From Clostridia bacterium (GTDB taxonomy: Bacteria > Bacillota > Clostridia > Oscillospirales > Acutalibacteraceae), in contig JAFSEP010000029.1 in the NCBI GenBank assembly GCA_017435665.1, positions 1-57,710 of the forward strand: a stretch of 57,710 nucleotides of DNA. Direction: 5' to 3'. The position numbers and the translations under genes were made by a program. The notes beneath the pieces were generated by a model. The model worked only from the letters and a program-made list of their open reading frames with translations. It was not told where the DNA came from and did not search any database. Below, one piece after another: positions 573-53,003 of the stretch (the first letter of the stretch is position 1; every line of letters begins with the position of its first letter).

Positions 573-1136
573 TCACATCGCATCAACAGTTTTCTTCAAT
601 TTCCTCCTGATCCGCTGAATGGCATTGTCTATACTTTTAGTACCCGACTGCAGCTGTTCAGCGATTTTCTCATAGCTGTTTCCGCTGAGGAAAAGATGAA
701 AGACCTGCTTTTCGAAATCGGAAAGACTTTCGTCAATCCTTGTCATCAGCCTCTTGGTTTGCTCCTTCATAATAAAGTAAGCCTCCGGGTCAGCCGACAA
801 GTCAACAGTCTGTGCATCCATCTCATCCATAGGAACAAGCGATGAGGGCGGAATACGCTTCTTTCTGTTAAGCGTGTTAATAGCCGAAATTATACGGTGA
901 TCCATGCATACACCCGCATACGTCTTAAACGAAGCACTGCCGTCCGTTTTATAGGTGTAGTATGCGGAAAGGAAGCCTATCATCGCCTCCTGAACCAGAT
1001 CATCATACTCTATGTCTGACGAAACATAACCCTTCGCCTTTTCTCTTGCAAAATCCATATAGGTTTTCACTAATTGAGTAAGAGCTGCATCATCACCGTT
1101 TCTTGCTTTTAAAATAAGTTCATTTTCCACGGTCAT
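573..1136 (-). CDS. RNA polymerase sigma factor, SigH-like (sigma-70 family)
   Basis: An alternative sigma factor of about 187 aa. The region 2 core is YDDLVQEAMIGFLSAYYTYK, followed by the region 2.4-like stretch FKTYAGVCMDHRIISAINTL and a basic RKKR. Region 4 near the C-terminus has a helix-turn-helix, with LSDFEKQVFHLFLSG then YEKIAEQLQ. There is no region 1.1 or full region 3, as in sporulation sigma-H and related factors (usually a little over 200 aa). The frame opens with a GTG at 1154, but the ribosome site GGAGG overlaps that codon, so the ATG at 1136 is the better start. A near-perfect promoter lies 50-70 bases upstream. SigH identity is inferred from length and layout; another small sigma factor is possible. 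Confidence 0.8.
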   Translation of the reverse strand: MTVENELILKARNGDDAALTQLVKTYMDFAREKAKGYVSSDIEYDDLVQEAMIGFLSAYYTYKTDGSASFKTYAGVCMDHRIISAINTLNRKKRIPPSSLVPMDEMDAQTVDLSADPEAYFIMKEQTKRLMTRIDESLSDFEKQVFHLFLSGNSYEKIAEQLQSGTKSIDNAIQRIRRKLKKTVDAM

Positions 1137-4796: not shown

Positions 4797-7700
4797 TCAA
4801 TATGTGATATCAAAAACCGATATTCTTTCTTCAACGCTTACCGTAAACGTTGCAATGGTGTTCATATTGAACTTTCCGAAATCCTCAAGTGTTACGGAAA
4901 CGTCAAGATTTGCATTTGTCATCTTAACATCTGAAACGAAGTAATAATCACACTTTTCGATTTTATCCGTAATCTTGTTGATTGTCAGAACGACCTTACC
5001 GTCTCTGTAAGACTGTTCAAGTGTTCCTTCGTTGATTTCCTCCATTCCGTATCCGCTTGCACCGGTATTCATATACTCGGTGAATCTGGTCTTGAAGGCT
5101 GAAATCTGTGTTTTTCCGATAACCGGCAAGGTCTTGCCGTATACAGTCGAATTAACATCCGAAACACCTGCAGCTGCCTGAGAGCCGAGAGTGAGCACAA
5201 GCTGATAAGTGACACCGCCGTTATCAATAACCTCAACAGATTTCACCTGAGAAGCGTTTATGCTTACGGGAACAATCGCACCCGTAACTGACTTATCCAC
5301 CAGCTTTTCAGGCTCGCTGAAAACATAATAAACCATATCGGCAGCACCCAGCTCGTCCTCGGTCATATCCTTCATGCTTGCCTGTATCATTGAGTTTGTC
5401 AGCCAGTTATCGCTTGACAGCTTAACCTCTGCATCGATTACATTAATATTGTTATAGCTGACATCCTTGTGCCTTGTGCCTACGGCAGACGAAGCTGACT
5501 GTGTGTAATTCTTGATCGCCTGAAGAGCATCCTCCTGAGAAACTGTCTCATAGGTATCTGAAACGAAATATACGTTCTTGCTGAAATCAGGCTTTGTCTC
5601 GGGGTAAGGCACAACTGTTACGTATGCGCCCTTTGCGGGAAGCTCTCTGAGAATTTCAATTTCATATACGCCCGTTGCCTGCTTTGTTACGCCCAGATAT
5701 TCTGCGTATGCGGCAGGGACGTTGCAAAGCATATCGGGAGAAGCAAAGACTCTGTCCTCGTTAATTCCGACCTCAGGAGTGATTGTTACCCTGTCACCTG
5801 CACTGAGACCGTCATGATAATCGTCAGCCATAATACCCTTTACCTCTATTTTGAAGGGCTCGCTGCTGATTTTTCCGTCAGCCGTGGTGAAGGTTACCGT
5901 AGTCTCACCCTCCTTGAGAAGCTCAAAGGTAAGGTATGATGAATTATTTGCACTTCCTGCTTTTTCGGTTGAAACATGTCTTACAATACTTTCGTCCTCA
6001 ATAACGAGCTTCATACCGAGGTCATATATAACCTCAGGGGGCGACCAGATTGCCTGAAGGGTCATTTCTTCGCCTACATAACCGGGTTCATAGGTTTCGC
6101 CCATCTTTGCCATGAGATAAAGCATAGGCTCTGCAACTGCAAACTGAGCGCTTGCCGTTACACTTGTATTATCAACCGAAATCGCCGTGATTGTTGCATT
6201 GCCCTTTCCTACGGCAATGAGCCTTCCGTTTTCAACTCTGATTACTTCGGGATTATTTGAAACATATCTTACCTCTGTTTCGGAAGCGTTTGACGGGCTT
6301 ACCGTAACGGAGGCAGTCATCTCCTGACCTACATATGTGCTGTAATTAGTTTTTGAGAAGGCAACACCCGTGACGTTAACCTTTTCCTTTATCATAAGGG
6401 TTGCAGTACCCTTCTTGCCGCTACCGTCCTTGGCGGTGGCAGTAACGGTGATTTTCTTGGCTCTGTCACCGAGAACTCCCTCGTCCTTATCAAACATTGT
6501 GGGTGCCTTCTTGATTGTGATATTGCCGTTTGCATCAATGCTTGCATAGCTTGTATCGCTTACAGACCAGGTTACCTCCTGACTTGCGTAAGAGGGATTA
6601 ACGAATGCCTGAGCCTGTCCCGTTTTGCCGTTATACCAGGAATTTGTTGTAAGATGAACTCCGACCTCTGTTGCCTTGACCTGTGAGGTTATGCTGCAGC
6701 TTGCCGCCGCACCGCTTCCGTCTGCGGCTGTTGCGGTTATTGTCGCTGTGCCGCCGCCAACAAGCGTAACCTTACCTGATGCATCAACGGTTGCAACCGA
6801 GGTATTGCTTGATTTCCAGTCGATTCTCTTATCTGTTGCATCTGCGGGAGCGATTGTTGCGCTGAGCTGATGTGTTGAGCCTGAAAGAGCCGTAATTGAA
6901 GTCTTATTAAGAGTAATACCCGTTACCTTAACTGCCTCCACAACCTTAACCTTGCAAACAGCAAATGCGCCCTTGCCGTCTGCGGCTGTTGCCTTAATGT
7001 TCGCTTCGCCGAGACCTGTATATGTAATTGCGCCACTTTGATCTATCTTAACAACGCTTTCGTTATCCGATGACCAGATAACATTCTTATTTGTAGCATA
7101 AGAGGGTGCTACCGTAGCCGTAAGAACATCCCCCGTCCTTCCGACAACTGCAACTATCTCTGTTTTTGAAAGTGTTATTCCCGTAACGTCTGCCGTACCT
7201 ACCGTTACAACGCAAACTGCTGTTGCCCCGCTGCCGTCTGCCGCTGCTGCAGTAATTGTTGCAGTTCCCGTTGAAAGAAGCACAACCGTTCCTCCGGCAT
7301 AAACGTTTGCAACAGAGGGGTTGCTTGATTTCCAGACAAGCGCCTTGTTTGTTGCGTTTGAGGGATATACTGTTGCGTTTATGGCGAAGGTTTCACCTGC
7401 CACATTCTTATCGCTGTCGGTAAGAGGATACTTGTTTCTGTCAAAAACAATCTGTGAAACAGGAACATCCTTAACCTTTATCTGACAGGCAGCAGTCTCG
7501 CCGCTGTCGTCCTTTGCTTCAGCAATAACCGTTGCTTCACCGCTGCTGATAAGTCTGACGTTACCGTAAGCGTCAACCGTTGCAACGGAAGGATCGCTTG
7601 AATACCAGGAAAGCTTCTTATTAGTTGCATTTGAGGGACTGACCGTTGCAGTCAGTCTTACCGTTGAGCCTATATCGCCCTCATAATATGCCTTTGAGAG

Positions 7701-8594
7701 CGTTATATCGTTTACAAGTATGGGCTTTACCGTAACTCTGCAGGTATCCTTTTCACCGCTTCCGTCCTTTGCGGTTGCAGTGATTACTGCCGAGCCTACA
7801 CTGACAGCAGTAACCTTGCCCGATGAAGTAACTGTTGCAACGTCTGTGTCGCTTGACTTCCACGTAACGTCCTTATTCGTTGCGTTTGAAGGTGATATAT
7901 CATAGCTGAGGGTATAGGTCTTACCCGGAGTGAGTGACATTGAGTTTCTGTCAAGGTCTACCGACGTAACCTTTACGGTTTTCTTCTTCGTTACGGTCAC
8001 CTTCACCTTTGCCTTCTTACCGCTTCCGTCCTTTGCCTTGCAGGTGATTGTTGCCGTACCTGCCTTCTTTGCGGTAATCTTGCCCTTTGAGCTGACAGTA
8101 GCAACACTCTTGTTGCTTGATGTCCAGCTTACGCTCTTATTTGTAGCCTTTGAAGGAGAAACCGTTGCCTTTACGGTTGTGGTCTTTCCTACGGTGAGCT
8201 TCACGCTTGTTTTGCTGAGCTTGATCTTGCTTACCTTAGTGGGCTTCTTGACGGTAACCTTACAGGTTGCTTTTTTGCCTGAGCCGTCCTTTGCCTTTAC
8301 GGTGATTGTGACCTTACCTGCCTTCTTTGCGGTAATCTTACCTGAGGAAGAAACCGTTGCAACCTTTTTGTTGCTTGATGACCAGGTCACCTTCTTATTG
8401 CTTGCATTTGAGGGGCTGACCGTAGCCTTGAGCTTATAGGTCTCTCCCACATAAATGGTGATACTTGTTTTGTTTAGCTTAATCTTCTTTACTTTTTTCT
8501 TGCTTGCCGCAGTTGAGGTCATACCGACTGAAACAGTGCTGAAAAGCATAAGCACCGTCATCATAACGGCAAGAATTCGCTTCAATGTTTTCAT
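4797..8594 (-). CDS. Secreted multi-BIG2 (bacterial Ig-like) surface protein, paralogue B
   Basis: A 1265-aa exported protein with the same signal peptide as paralogue A and nine BIG2 repeats against seven in A. Repeat strands such as VTGITLNKTSIT, VTWKSSD and VATVDASG are clear throughout. The first two repeats are nearly identical to those of A at both DNA and protein level; later repeats have diverged. The C-terminal region (from about residue 840) has no recognised domain but shares blocks with A, such as SYRDGKVV and the endings EERISVFDITY / EEKITYYNFEY. The start ATG has AGGAGG 8 bases upstream. No membrane anchor or sorting motif is seen. It probably forms an extended stalk at the cell surface; function beyond that is unknown. 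Confidence 0.85.
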   Translation of the reverse strand: MKTLKRILAVMMTVLMLFSTVSVGMTSTAASKKKVKKIKLNKTSITIYVGETYKLKATVSPSNASNKKVTWSSSNKKVATVSSSGKITAKKAGKVTITVKAKDGSGKKATCKVTVKKPTKVSKIKLSKTSVKLTVGKTTTVKATVSPSKATNKSVSWTSSNKSVATVSSKGKITAKKAGTATITCKAKDGSGKKAKVKVTVTKKKTVKVTSVDLDRNSMSLTPGKTYTLSYDISPSNATNKDVTWKSSDTDVATVTSSGKVTAVSVGSAVITATAKDGSGEKDTCRVTVKPILVNDITLSKAYYEGDIGSTVRLTATVSPSNATNKKLSWYSSDPSVATVDAYGNVRLISSGEATVIAEAKDDSGETAACQIKVKDVPVSQIVFDRNKYPLTDSDKNVAGETFAINATVYPSNATNKALVWKSSNPSVANVYAGGTVVLLSTGTATITAAAADGSGATAVCVVTVGTADVTGITLSKTEIVAVVGRTGDVLTATVAPSYATNKNVIWSSDNESVVKIDQSGAITYTGLGEANIKATAADGKGAFAVCKVKVVEAVKVTGITLNKTSITALSGSTHQLSATIAPADATDKRIDWKSSNTSVATVDASGKVTLVGGGTATITATAADGSGAAASCSITSQVKATEVGVHLTTNSWYNGKTGQAQAFVNPSYASQEVTWSVSDTSYASIDANGNITIKKAPTMFDKDEGVLGDRAKKITVTATAKDGSGKKGTATLMIKEKVNVTGVAFSKTNYSTYVGQEMTASVTVSPSNASETEVRYVSNNPEVIRVENGRLIAVGKGNATITAISVDNTSVTASAQFAVAEPMLYLMAKMGETYEPGYVGEEMTLQAIWSPPEVIYDLGMKLVIEDESIVRHVSTEKAGSANNSSYLTFELLKEGETTVTFTTADGKISSEPFKIEVKGIMADDYHDGLSAGDRVTITPEVGINEDRVFASPDMLCNVPAAYAEYLGVTKQATGVYEIEILRELPAKGAYVTVVPYPETKPDFSKNVYFVSDTYETVSQEDALQAIKNYTQSASSAVGTRHKDVSYNNINVIDAEVKLSSDNWLTNSMIQASMKDMTEDELGAADMVYYVFSEPEKLVDKSVTGAIVPVSINASQVKSVEVIDNGGVTYQLVLTLGSQAAAGVSDVNSTVYGKTLPVIGKTQISAFKTRFTEYMNTGASGYGMEEINEGTLEQSYRDGKVVLTINKITDKIEKCDYYFVSDVKMTNANLDVSVTLEDFGKFNMNTIATFTVSVEERISVFDITY

Positions 8595-11592: not shown

Positions 11593-11611
11593 AAACTTGC
11601 CGTCATAACTA

Positions 11612-11640
11612 TTGACAAGGCAAGAAAAAAAATATATAAT
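11612..11640 (+). promoter_or_regulatory. Perfect consensus promoter of the antitoxin RNA
   Basis: TTGACA (11612-11617) and TATAAT (11635-11640) are separated by exactly 17 bp. The -35 sits in an imperfect inverted repeat (CTTGCC...GGCAAG). No plus-strand ORF with a ribosome site follows, so the product is most likely a small RNA. Confidence 0.8.
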
Positions 11641-11646
11641 ATCTAT

Positions 11647-11746
11647 AGAAAGAGGTACTGCGATAAGCAGTTGTCCCCTTTTAGTTAATTGTGTTAAACA
11701 GAAACACCACCAACTTTTAGGCGAGTTTTGGTGGTGTTTCTTACTT
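11647..11746 (+). ncRNA. Candidate antisense RNA antitoxin (type I TA)
   Basis: Inferred RNA of about 100 nt running from the consensus promoter to the hairpin at 11701-11740. A small 5' hairpin (ACTGC/GCAGT) is followed by the long terminator stem. The last 50 or so bases would be complementary to the 3' end of the convergent minus-strand toxin mRNA, the geometry of TxpA/RatA and BsrG/SR4 in Bacillus subtilis. It contains no convincing start codon with a ribosome site. The ends are estimated from the promoter and hairpin only. Confidence 0.6.
11701..11740. terminator. Shared bidirectional terminator of toxin mRNA and antitoxin RNA
   Basis: A perfect 13-bp stem (GAAACACCACCAA/TTGGTGGTGTTTC) with a 14-base loop. 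The plus strand continues TTACTTTA and the minus strand TGTTTAA, so it can end transcripts from both sides, making them overlap through the whole hairpin. Confidence 0.75.
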
Positions 11747-11759
11747 TATGTAAGTGTTG

Positions 11760-11858
11760 CTATTTTCTTCTCTTGTTATCAGAAAAAATCGTGTAGCAAG
11801 CAACGACAATTGCGACAATCAAAGAAGTGAACATAATCAGCTCAGTAAAAGTCACCAT
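11760..11858 (-). CDS. Small hydrophobic peptide, candidate type I toxin (holin-like/TxpA-Fst type)
   Basis: A 32-aa peptide with a short polar N-terminus (MVTFTEL), one membrane-spanning segment at about residues 7-24 (rich in I, V, A, F) and a basic end (NKRRK). This is the layout of small type I toxins and of the 'putative holin-like toxin' peptides of Bacillota, and the MVTF.EL start resembles that family. The ORF is open further upstream, but the ATG at 11858 has a perfect AGGAGG 8 bases away and the extended part would overlap the promoter. A second in-frame ATG at 11864 is too close to the ribosome site. The leader can fold to hide the ribosome site. Probable action is at the membrane; toxicity is inferred. 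Confidence 0.65.
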   Translation of the reverse strand: MVTFTELIMFTSLIVAIVVACYTIFSDNKRRK

Positions 11859-11867
11859 AGTCATCAC

Positions 11868-11885
11868 CTCCTCACCTAAGAGGAG
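11868..11885 (-). promoter_or_regulatory. Hairpin sequestering the toxin ribosome binding site
   Basis: In the minus-strand mRNA CTCCTC (11880-11885) can pair with GAGGAG (11868-11873) across a 6-base loop, covering most of the AGGAGG site. Type I toxin mRNAs commonly mask their ribosome site this way. Confidence 0.6.
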
Positions 11886-11906
11886 CAAACCACCTATCTT
11901 ATTGCA

Positions 11907-11937
11907 GTACCTGCGTGTGCAAAGCACACGCAGGTAC
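11907..11937 (-). promoter_or_regulatory. 14-bp perfect palindrome at the toxin transcription start
   Basis: GTACCTGCGTGTGC and its exact complement are separated by AAA on the plus strand (TTT in the mRNA). The predicted transcription start (about 11931) lies inside it, so the mRNA would begin with an 8-bp hairpin; as DNA it could also be an operator. Which applies cannot be told from sequence. Confidence 0.6.
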
Positions 11938-11966
11938 ATTATATACCAAGGTAATAAATATGTCAA
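11938..11966 (-). promoter_or_regulatory. Perfect consensus promoter of the toxin gene
   Basis: On the minus strand TTGACA (11961-11966) and TATAAT (11938-11943) are separated by exactly 17 bp. Together with the antisense promoter this gives two full-consensus promoters facing each other about 300 bp apart. Confidence 0.8.
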
Positions 11967-11987
11967 ATTATGTTTGCTTTATAATGC

Positions 11988-12926: not shown

Positions 12927-12956
12927 AACGGCACTTCGTCTTTCCGAAGTGCCGTT
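12927..12956 (-). terminator. Terminator of the hisS-aspS operon
   Basis: A perfect 12-bp stem (AACGGCACTTCG/CGAAGTGCCGTT, loop 6) lies 9 bases after the aspS stop, and TTTTGTG follows on the minus strand. Confidence 0.8.
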
Positions 12957-14769: not shown

Positions 14770-16107
14770 TTATAATATTGAATTAAGATCTATACTGTCA
14801 TCAATTCCCAGATTTTCGTATAAAGCCGACATACTCTGCTGAATTGATATATTCATAAAATTATCAACGAAGTCATCAAGCTGAACCTCAGTTGTTTCAC
14901 CTGTCTGCATATTTTTAAGGTTAGCCTTGTTTTCGTCAATCTCCGTGTCGCCCAGCACCATTGTGTATTCAGCGCCAAGCTTGTTTGCAAATTTCATCTG
15001 CGCTTTTACGGATCTTCCCACAACGTCAAATTGCGCATTCACACCCTCAGTGCGAAGCTGAGAAACAATCTCCGCAGCCTTGAAGGAAGCCTTATCACCC
15101 ATCGATGCAATATAGATATTGCAGGGCTTATCTGCCGGGAAGGGAATATTCTGTGCTTCCATAAGAAGCATAAGTCTCTCAATACCCATACCGAAGCCGA
15201 GAGCAGGAGTAGGAGCTCCGCCAAGCTCCTGACAAAGACCGTCATAGCGTCCGCCGCCGCATACTGTTCCCTGAGCACCGATTTCATTTGAAACGAACTC
15301 GAAAACTGTGCGTGTATAGTAGTCGAGACCTCTTACGATTGTGGGATTGACCTTGTATTCAATGCCCATAGCATCAAGATACATCTTAGTTTTGTCAAAG
15401 TGCTCCTTGCAGTCATCGCAGAGGAACTGAAGAACTGTGGGGGCATTCTTTGCAATTTCACCGCATACGGGGCTCTTGCAGTCAAGTATGCGCATAGGGT
15501 TTCTGTCAAGTCTGCCAAGGCAAGTCTCACAAAGGTCGCCCTTATATTTTTCAAAGTATTCCTTCAATGCCTTATGGTATTCCTTACGACATTCGGGACA
15601 TCCGATTGAGTTGATTTCAAGCTGTAAATTCTTCACATCAAGGAAAGTGAAAACATCGTTTGCAAGTGCAATAACCTCTGCATCTGCAGCCGGTGAAGCT
15701 GTGCCTACACACTCAACTCCGAACTGATGAAACTCACGGAGTCTGCCTGCCTGAGGCTTTTCATATCTGTAACAGCTTGTCAGATAGCACATCTTCTGGG
15801 GAAGGGGCTCGTTGAAAAGACCGTGTTCCAGAAAGGCTCTGATAACACCTGCTGTACCCTCGGGACGAAGAGTTATCGACCTTTCGCCCTTATCGTTGAA
15901 TGTATACATTTCCTTCTGCACCACATCCGTTGTGTCGCCCACACCTCTCTGGAAAAGCTCGGTGTGTTCAAAAACGGGAGTGCGTATTTCTTTAAATCCG
16001 TAATTACCTGCTATTTCAAGGACAGTCTGCTCAATAAACTGCACCTTATAGCTTTCGTTGGGCAGGGTATCCTGTGTACCCTTGATTGCCTTAGTCACAA
16101 GTGCCAT
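14770..16107 (-). CDS. hisS: Histidine--tRNA ligase
   Basis: A class II synthetase of 445 aa that charges tRNA-His. Motif 2 is CYRYEKPQAGRLREFHQFG, the histidine-specific motif is GLDYYTRTVFE, and motif 3 is GFGMGIERLMLL. Between about residues 165 and 235 there is an extra Cys-rich stretch (CPEC, CETC, CKSPVCG, CDDC), consistent with a zinc-binding insertion seen in clostridial HisRS. The start ATG has GGAGG upstream. It is the first gene after the T-box and is followed by aspS. Confidence 0.95.
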   Translation of the reverse strand: MALVTKAIKGTQDTLPNESYKVQFIEQTVLEIAGNYGFKEIRTPVFEHTELFQRGVGDTTDVVQKEMYTFNDKGERSITLRPEGTAGVIRAFLEHGLFNEPLPQKMCYLTSCYRYEKPQAGRLREFHQFGVECVGTASPAADAEVIALANDVFTFLDVKNLQLEINSIGCPECRKEYHKALKEYFEKYKGDLCETCLGRLDRNPMRILDCKSPVCGEIAKNAPTVLQFLCDDCKEHFDKTKMYLDAMGIEYKVNPTIVRGLDYYTRTVFEFVSNEIGAQGTVCGGGRYDGLCQELGGAPTPALGFGMGIERLMLLMEAQNIPFPADKPCNIYIASMGDKASFKAAEIVSQLRTEGVNAQFDVVGRSVKAQMKFANKLGAEYTMVLGDTEIDENKANLKNMQTGETTEVQLDDFVDNFMNISIQQSMSALYENLGIDDSIDLNSIL

Positions 16108-16125: not shown

Positions 16126-16345
16126 AAAAATGCTTCATCCCGATAGTACACTAAGGTACTGCAAGGGATGAAGCCATAGCTCCACGGTGCCACCCTATTT
16201 GCTGTCATTGACAGCCACTCTTTAAGGTTATGTGTCTCGGCAGTATCTTCGGCATACTATTATACAATCTCCCACCAACCGATTGCTCTCTGAAATAAAA
16301 TCATATGCTTACTACTCTGCGTCATCGACTGTTTTTAGTTAATCA
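16126..16345 (-). promoter_or_regulatory. T-box leader of hisS-aspS, tRNA-Asp specific
   Basis: On the minus strand the leader contains the T-box AGGGTGGCACCGTG (16183-16196), stem I with GGTTGGTGGGAG, and an intrinsic terminator. The terminator is a 10-bp stem (GCTTCATCCC/GGGATGAAGC, 16132-16141 with 16165-16174) followed by ATTTTTTATTTT. In the specifier loop the 3' side reads GAA-GAT-A, placing GAT (Asp) at 16245-16247 between the arms GCATA/TATGC and GCAG/CTGC. The variable T-box base after TGG is C, which pairs with discriminator G as in tRNA-Asp; bacterial tRNA-His has C73. Uncharged tRNA-Asp should therefore promote read-through into both synthetase genes. Confidence 0.9.
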
Positions 16346-52841: not shown

Positions 52842-53003
52842 ATATCGCTTATGCGATATGATATACGCCGAGGCGTATGATATACTTGCTACGCAAGCGT
52901 GATATAATATCCGTTCCTTCATATGCGAAGCATATATCATCCACCGAAGGCGGATATCATATCGAAGATATATCACCCGTTCCTCAAGGGACGGATATCA
53001 TTG
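52842..53003. repeat. Array of small hairpins separated by GATAT/ATATC
   Basis: About six or seven palindromes follow one another, each flanked by GATAT(A) or its complement. They are ATATCGC-TTAT-GCGATAT (52842-52859), ATACGCC-GA-GGCGTAT (52863-52878), CTTGC-TAC-GCAAG (52885-52897), ATATGC-GAA-GCATAT (52921-52935), TCCACC-GAA-GGCGGA (about 52940-52954), ATATC-GAA-GATAT (52959-52971) and CCGTTCC-TCAA-GGGACGG (about 52978-52994). The linker orientation flips near the middle (GATATA on the left, ATATCAT on the right). No ORF is present. It lies between the tRNA terminator and the four-helix-bundle gene. Confidence 0.75.

Follow-up and report, generated by a model that had tools for sequence, protein, structure and literature searches.

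The stretch of DNA considered here, 57,710 nucleotides (nt) of a gut Clostridia bacterium of Ruminococcus type (contig JAFSEP010000029.1; hereafter the window), contains a compact convergent locus in which the sequences for a predicted 32-amino-acid (aa) membrane peptide and for a short RNA face each other across a common hairpin (Table 1). The locus lies between rlmH and an M28 peptidase gene, named as in an earlier note that was made from the letters of the window and that proposed a type I toxin-antitoxin pair. The two facing TTGACA-N17-TATAAT promoters that the note had called perfect are present, one on each strand. No other perfect TTGACA-N16-18-TATAAT site occurs in the window, and 100 dinucleotide shuffles of it gave a mean of 0.02 such sites, none of the 100 containing two. 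The open reading frame (ORF) of the peptide also stands as reported, behind an AGGAGG Shine-Dalgarno (SD) sequence. It encodes MVTFTELIMFTSLIVAIVVACYTIFSDNKRRK, in which one hydrophobic stretch and a basic tail can be read, and its ATG follows the SD by 8 nt as read; an alternative in-frame ATG two codons upstream would be too near the SD.

The hairpin between peptide and RNA, previously given as a 13-bp bidirectional structure, is there, with 14 perfect pairs as read rather than 13 (arms 11700-11713 with 11728-11741; folding gives 13 plus 4 pairs), and is followed by poor T-tails, TTCTTACTTTATG on the plus strand and TTTCTGTTTAAC on the minus strand. With the start of the toxin mRNA assumed to lie 7 nt past the -10 element, the minus strand would yield an mRNA of ~240 nt and the plus strand an RNA of ~100 nt. 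An overlap at the 3' ends, put at ~50 nt in the note, is retained at a predicted ~57 nt with RNA ends assumed near 11748 and 11692; because both RNAs share one terminator, these ~57 nt would be perfectly complementary, and they are confined to the 3' untranslated region, outside the coding part. Compared with dinucleotide shuffles, the folds have z -4.6 for the antitoxin RNA and z -5.3 for the toxin mRNA. The 5' hairpin of the antitoxin has an inner stem ACTGC/GCAGT and a GATAA loop. Three features go beyond the earlier description: a 5' hairpin sequence shared by both RNAs, a hairpin that sequesters the SD, and a multicopy family of such loci.

Table 1. Features of the convergent locus, in positions of the window.
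Feature	Position	Strand	Basis
Antitoxin-RNA promoter, TTGACA-N17-TATAAT, 12/12	11612..11640	+	sequence scan
Toxin promoter, TTGACA-N17-TATAAT, 12/12	11938..11966	-	sequence scan
Predicted antitoxin RNA, ~100 nt, presumed ends	11647..11748	+	R1 match, fold z
Antitoxin 5' hairpin, GAGGTACTGC-GATAA-GCAGTTGTCCCC	11652..11678	+	fold, covariation; coordinates by reading
Shared bidirectional terminator hairpin, 14 perfect pairs as read, poor T-tails	11700..11741	both	termination presumed
Predicted toxin, 32-aa single-span peptide with basic tail	11760..11858	-	ORF, homologues, sub-threshold Hol_Tox
SD AGGAGG (11872-11867) in hairpin, CUCCUC (11885-11880) with GAGGAG (11873-11868)	11867..11885	-	fold, pair-specific cis pairing
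Leader copy of the antitoxin 5' hairpin sequence, AGGTACTGCAATAAGATAGGTGGTTTGCTCCTC, same sense as antitoxin	11880..11912	-	sequence comparison
5'-terminal hairpin of predicted toxin mRNA, GCGTGTGC-TTT-GCACACGC	11913..11931	-	fold

Peptide and RNA recur together in many genomes, promoters and opposite ORFs included. A peptide search of 59 relatives at a lax E of 1 gave matches in 14 (the own genome among them), the weakest of which, on reading, are not such loci. The peptide is conserved along with the rest of the locus, its best homologues being two copies in one relative (G009; 57 and 55% identity, E near 1.5e-7) that stand beside homologous RNAs. Searching the same 59 relatives with the DNA gave 7 genomes including the own, with matches concentrated on the plus-strand promoter and RNA. 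We read 22 loci; of those with better scores, most have both halves of the pair, namely a promoter, the 5' core GTACTGCGATAAGCGGTTnCTCC, an AT-rich linker and a palindromic terminator for the RNA and, opposite it, a small ORF with an SD and a promoter. Used as a pattern, the core was found in 24 stretches of an 84,980-species collection, from which the own genome may be left out, and the titles of all 24 name Ruminococcus, uncultured Clostridia or Oscillospiraceae.

From a 35-sequence alignment (A1, with one of 36 units left out) we built R1, a covariance model of the plus-strand RNA; it comprises a two-part 5' hairpin and the terminator, and matches the window at 11647-11742 with 63.5 bits. 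In the alignment 98.5% of the cells are paired, and 78 are double-changed compared to 33 in shuffles. The covariation score is 0.349 against 0.172 shuffled, and at most 0.105 when slid, the structure being derived from the same alignment; the stems thus covary above shuffles in related genomes, a check that the note had suggested. Double changes fall in 11 of the 18 pairs, mostly in the terminator helix (8 of the 11); of the seven pairs in the 5' hairpin, three carry them and three are invariant.

With the own genome counted at every level and stricter filters in the large searches, R1 matches 21 of 34 genomes of the genus at E 0.01 (best E of 1e-5 or better in 9/34), 28 of 200 in the family and 41 of 295 in the order at E 1e-4, and 13 of 391 in the class at E 1e-5. 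Some of the weaker genus and order matches that we read keep strong promoters and opposite ORFs. At class level, 5 of 11 loci inspected have a good promoter within ~65 bases upstream in a crude scan, and the apparent spread of R1 beyond the order is less certain. One genome, G031, has 37 R1 matches, 25 of them at 44 bits or more, the weaker ones including mirror reads of the palindrome. The own genome has a second locus at C64:7880-7970 (L115; 57.1 bits, opposite ORF MEYLIMSALILILSTGYILAIKNDNKKK) and weaker ones at C54:3407 (35.0 bits) and C63:79130 (27.6 bits). Rfam 15 at gathering score gave four matches in the window, none at the locus; at a lax threshold the 18 matches at the locus were all far below gathering, and 10 relative loci gave no match. 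The window locus is a single member of an extensive family of such pairs in gut Clostridia, to which no name appears to have been given and in which the two RNAs of a pair have matching hairpins.

The G031 copies, for example those at C78:3488-4544 and C22:4612-5048, include tandem ones, and their peptides fall into several groups by sequence. Three IMG/VR viral contigs (L087, L088 and L089) also have the antitoxin core and small ORFs facing it, and L089 carries a second, different pair at 880-966 (minus). A second type of convergent pair is present in the own genome at C54:3407-3490 (L120) and C63:79130-79220 (L121), with peptides MPIIITLHIF(S/R)YTVTIRIK(S/D)NNRHSAK facing an RNA whose 5' end is of the GGUAACCG...CGGUUAGCC type and whose terminator is similar.

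R1 matches were checked against features outside the model, using the 104 best of 156 matches, down to 40.7 bits. The search covered the window and 93 of 176 loci, hand-picked to avoid overlaps, leaving out some weaker loci (e.g., among L099-L107, L145, L160 and L169); also left out of the 104 were matches below ~40 bits opposite a strong match, which are the terminator palindrome read backwards. R1 does not include the promoter, yet a promoter of at least 11/12 stands just upstream in 97 of the 104 (12/12 in 82), compared to 0 of 277 control windows in the same loci. Because loci found with the promoter in the query could be biased, those found by R1 alone in the family and order searches were counted separately, and 41 of these 46 have an upstream promoter of at least 11/12. 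A toxin-side promoter of at least 10/12 is present on the opposite strand in 68 of 99, compared to 11 of the 176 control windows. Of the 104 matches, 97 received a call for an opposite ORF, small and hydrophobic at most of them.

The holin-like character that the note saw in the peptide survives through relatives and not as direct membership of Hol_Tox (PF16935), for which the window peptide scores 14.3 bits (E 0.038) under a curated cut-off of 23.3 bits; the best score among the 34 genus genomes is 21.2 bits. The peptide at locus L133, with the same kind of RNA partner, reaches 32 bits, over the cut-off, and another member with the same RNA reaches 19.3 bits; several further partner peptides gave no Hol_Tox match. 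An 18-sequence alignment led by the window peptide matches the L133 peptide with an hhalign E of 1.3e-7. On our reading the window peptide appears to belong to a divergent branch related to Hol_Tox peptides, marked by eye by a CY-IF-(N/D) end, and is a non-member by the curated test. No Fst model was found among Pfam and NCBIfam matches up to E 10, where HMMER filters may drop weak ones. NCBIfam and PHROGs gave only weak matches for the window peptide; the L133 peptide matched ComI (28.3 bits, cut-off 55) and the type I toxin PepG1 (19, cut-off 70) in NCBIfam, both below cut-off, and PADLOC returned nothing for three peptides. In all five toxin groups that were compared (21-36 aa) changes are fewest at the second codon position and most numerous at the third, in one example 165/61/281 nucleotide changes over 28 pairs, a bias expected of translated peptides. 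Type I systems involve a small hydrophobic membrane peptide, and the window peptide, with its predicted membrane location, appears to be one; they also involve an antisense RNA with its own promoter, complementary to the toxin mRNA, which at the level of sequence the plus-strand RNA appears to be.

The locus is not syntenic in relatives. A search with rlmH gave matches in 33 of the 34 genus genomes and returned 30 loci, the own included, and the rlmH end was located in 24. In the 23 relatives among these, no facing promoters were found within 700 bp past rlmH (or within the shorter stretch available at some loci), and of the 30 loci only that of the own genome was found to have an M28 peptidase gene beside rlmH. 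The tandem copies seen in relatives, the patchy spread, the three viral contigs and the non-syntenic position together suggest gain and loss over time. A blastn search of 11600-11980 against phage and plasmid records gave no match at E 0.01.

Among known systems the layout is nearer to par (Fst-RNA II) of plasmid pAD1, of the Fst/Ldr family, than to the Bacillus pairs. The par locus combines convergent promoters and a ~33-aa toxin with one bidirectional terminator for both RNAs; both 5' ends carry repeats, and the toxin mRNA has a 5' helix as well as a hairpin that sequesters the SD (PMC7472228). The window locus likewise has convergent RNAs, a shared terminator (presumed as to termination), 5' repeats, and a predicted SD hairpin and toxin-mRNA 5' helix. 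The par repeats are direct, so that the RNAs are complementary there (PMC7472228), whereas the window repeats are inverted, giving the same sense in both RNAs and no complementary 5' regions. The PXXXG(C) motif of Fst (PMC7472228) is also absent from the window peptide, which has no proline and so lacks PXXXG. The likeness to TxpA/RatA and BsrG/SR4 of Bacillus drawn in the note stands for the overlap and pairing at the 3' ends and for the small toxin, and BsrG/SR4 has its SD sequestered too (PMC6562991). It does not extend to the layout or to the amount of complementarity, which in the Bacillus pairs is 100-140 bp at the 3' ends and here ~57 nt (with assumed ends) with none in the coding part; a shared same-sense 5' hairpin is not seen in the Bacillus pair descriptions of that source (PMC6562991). 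In Clostridia, the Clostridioides difficile type I pairs (CD2517.1-RCd8 and others) are likewise convergent and overlapping, and differ in that a long complementary region is described for them; the word Ruminococcus does not occur in that Clostridia review (PMC6563280). The Pro-SMP finder paper mentions holin-like toxins in general (PMC10903887). No description of this pair family was found among the matches listed in the open-licence literature, a result that leaves room for an account elsewhere.

The 5' hairpin sequence of the antitoxin recurs in the toxin leader, and its sense is the same in both RNAs. At the window locus, antitoxin AGGTACTGCGATAAG-CAG-TTGTCCCCTTTTAG and leader AGGTACTGCAATAAGATAGGTGGTTTGCTCCTCTTAG align with a local score of 25, which 0 of 1000 shuffled leaders reached (highest 24), and the own leader ranks first of 63. 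These 63 clean units were obtained from 97 with an ORF call by filtering on promoters, SD and hydrophobicity, and across them the cognate score is 22.0 compared to 15.1 non-cognate. Across 29 non-redundant units the values are 21.4 and 14.0 (z 12.7), with the own leader first in 18. Both hairpin arms contribute to this pair-specific likeness (z 10.5 and 10.8) and the controls are flat (linker z 0.7, reversed leader z 1.6, promoter spacer z 1.06), all these z values being indicative because the permutation treats units as independent. A 24-row order-level hairpin alignment (5 of 29 rows left out) was not used, the 5' arms being in different registers. We rejected the idea of an inverted duplication, covering the promoter region as a whole and kept alike by gene conversion: spacers and upstream DNA give z 1.06 (p 0.15), and neither the linker (z 0.67) nor reversed leaders (z 1.6) support it.

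Pairing energies bear on what this hairpin might do. Two partners are available to the leader CUCC past the hairpin, the leader's 5' arm and the SD (GGAGG). The minimum free energy structure of the window leader places CUCC on the SD, and this cis pairing is pair-specific across the 29 pairs (z -4.4). For the antitoxin 3' arm (GCGGUUnCUCC type), pairing is stronger with the leader of its own pair (p 0.001) and likewise with the cognate SD region (p 0.008), and the terminator arm gives p 0.014 with the leader, these being p values from eight uncorrected comparisons. The window leader has GGUGGU compared to GGCGGU in most relatives, and its terminator arm ACCACC compared to ACCGCC in many; this single co-change hints at a leader-terminator contact as well. 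By far the strongest pairing is that of the 3' ends (-81 vs -33 kcal/mol non-cognate), which are likely to be the docking and RNase III site. The 3'-arm result favours, without proving, an antitoxin that copies the leader 3' arm to put CUCC on the SD, or that covers the SD. Full strand exchange between the 5' regions of the two RNAs is unsupported (5' arm p 0.91, hairpin p 0.22).

We propose that the minus strand gives an mRNA for a membrane-inserting peptide and the plus strand an RNA that would meet it tail to tail. From the outset, a CUCC/GGAG hairpin would hold the SD of the toxin mRNA. The antitoxin would dock via complementary terminator loops and 3' ends, and its 5' hairpin, with a 3' arm imitating the anti-SD arm of the leader, would then act on the leader and SD region so that translation stays off. 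RNase III, to judge from the Bacillus pairs, would probably cut the duplex. Should the antitoxin decay faster than the mRNA, peptide would be made and the membrane damaged. As to the mimicry itself, the antitoxin 3' arm would displace the leader 3' arm and free the leader CUCC to clamp its own SD; direct pairing of that arm with the SD may occur as well, and the two RNAs would be tethered by the terminator duplex. That these RNAs form a clade-wide, undescribed type I antitoxin family working by mimicry of the leader 5' hairpin is a tentative proposal, which we would sooner doubt than assert.

A chromosomal type I toxin-antitoxin pair is, with good confidence, the best explanation of the locus as a whole. 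Architecture, conservation, a coding signal in relatives, support for the RNA structures and the paired hairpin sequences can all be seen in the sequences, whereas transcription, the RNA ends, toxicity, the order of binding and the RNase are predictions. Several observations weigh against it. The weak T-tails, together with a pattern scanner that reported a weak sub-hairpin on the minus strand and not the full hairpin, mean that termination at the window hairpin is only inferred. The window peptide is under the Hol_Tox cut-off and none of the 34 genus genomes has a match over it, and the hhalign result is weak taken alone because short hydrophobic peptides align easily. R1 has no match at E 0.01 in 13 of the 34 genus genomes, so that the locus is dispensable; some weaker matches (e.g., L107 and L160) show no recognisable pair, some opposite-ORF calls are spurious, and none was called for 7 of the 104. 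In the hairpin comparison L115, the own genome's second copy, ranks its own leader 14th of 29, and L026, with a doubtful ORF call, ranks its own 26th. The antitoxin 5' arm shows no preference for its own leader (p 0.91) or SD (p 0.28), and the whole 5' hairpin against its own leader gives p 0.22 in 29 units and p 0.06 in the 63-unit test.

The last of these results bear on the role of the hairpin, and it is a serious possibility, if somewhat short of an even one, that the pair is of type I and the 3' overlap alone silences, as described for RatA, with the hairpin a common stability, RNase or protein-binding element that is needed by both RNAs and takes no part in pairing. This alternative concerns the hairpin and not the type I reading. 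It accords with the dominance of the 3' duplex in the energetics, with the lack of pair-specific complementarity to the leader in the antitoxin 5' arm and whole hairpin, and with the recurrence of AUAA-containing loops in both RNAs of many pairs. A generic protein site need not match pair by pair, however, yet the hairpins do (z 12.7 over 29 pairs), and the 3' arm pairs better with the cognate leader and SD region at the uncorrected p values given above.

A small membrane peptide that is non-toxic, has a physiological role and is tuned by the convergent antisense RNA seems to us improbable. Many single-span peptides are not toxic, the toxicity here is predicted, and the locus is chromosomal and adjoins rlmH; set against these points, the multicopy and patchy distribution, the tandem copies, the three viral-contig copies, the non-syntenic position, the strong dual promoters and the sequestered SD are all more in keeping with addiction-type modules. 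A chance arrangement of promoter-like and ORF-like sequence can be dismissed: in a 2.5-kb scan promoter-like sites in general are no commoner than in shuffles (5 vs 5.5), but perfect sites number 2 against 0.02 expected, and the comparative data, with homologous loci of the same plan in many genomes, already refute it.

Elsewhere in the window, a T-box leader lies at 16161-16334 (minus), just upstream of a 445-aa ORF (14770-16107) that we take to be a histidyl-tRNA synthetase, and a Gut-1 RNA (RF01706) at 52929-53003 (minus) adjoins two tRNA genes. A palindromic 12-pair hairpin at 12927-12956, terminator-like on both strands, stands between the M28 peptidase ORF and a 595-aa ORF, presumably aspS-like. 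A 1265-aa secreted-looking protein at 4797-8594 (minus) consists mostly of repeated segments ending in TVTVK-like strands, Ig-like by eye.

A multicopy class of membrane peptides under RNA control, with an antitoxin RNA unmatched in Rfam 15, appears to be present in gut Clostridia, and the R1 covariance model offers a means of annotating loci whose short ORFs are easily overlooked. The same-sense hairpin is a testable departure from the antitoxin pairing of par/Fst, and it may account for the presence of ~25 similar pairs in one genome that do not silence each other. If the mimicry proposal is true, a hairpin version of its own for each pair would allow a cell to keep dozens of copies free of cross-talk.
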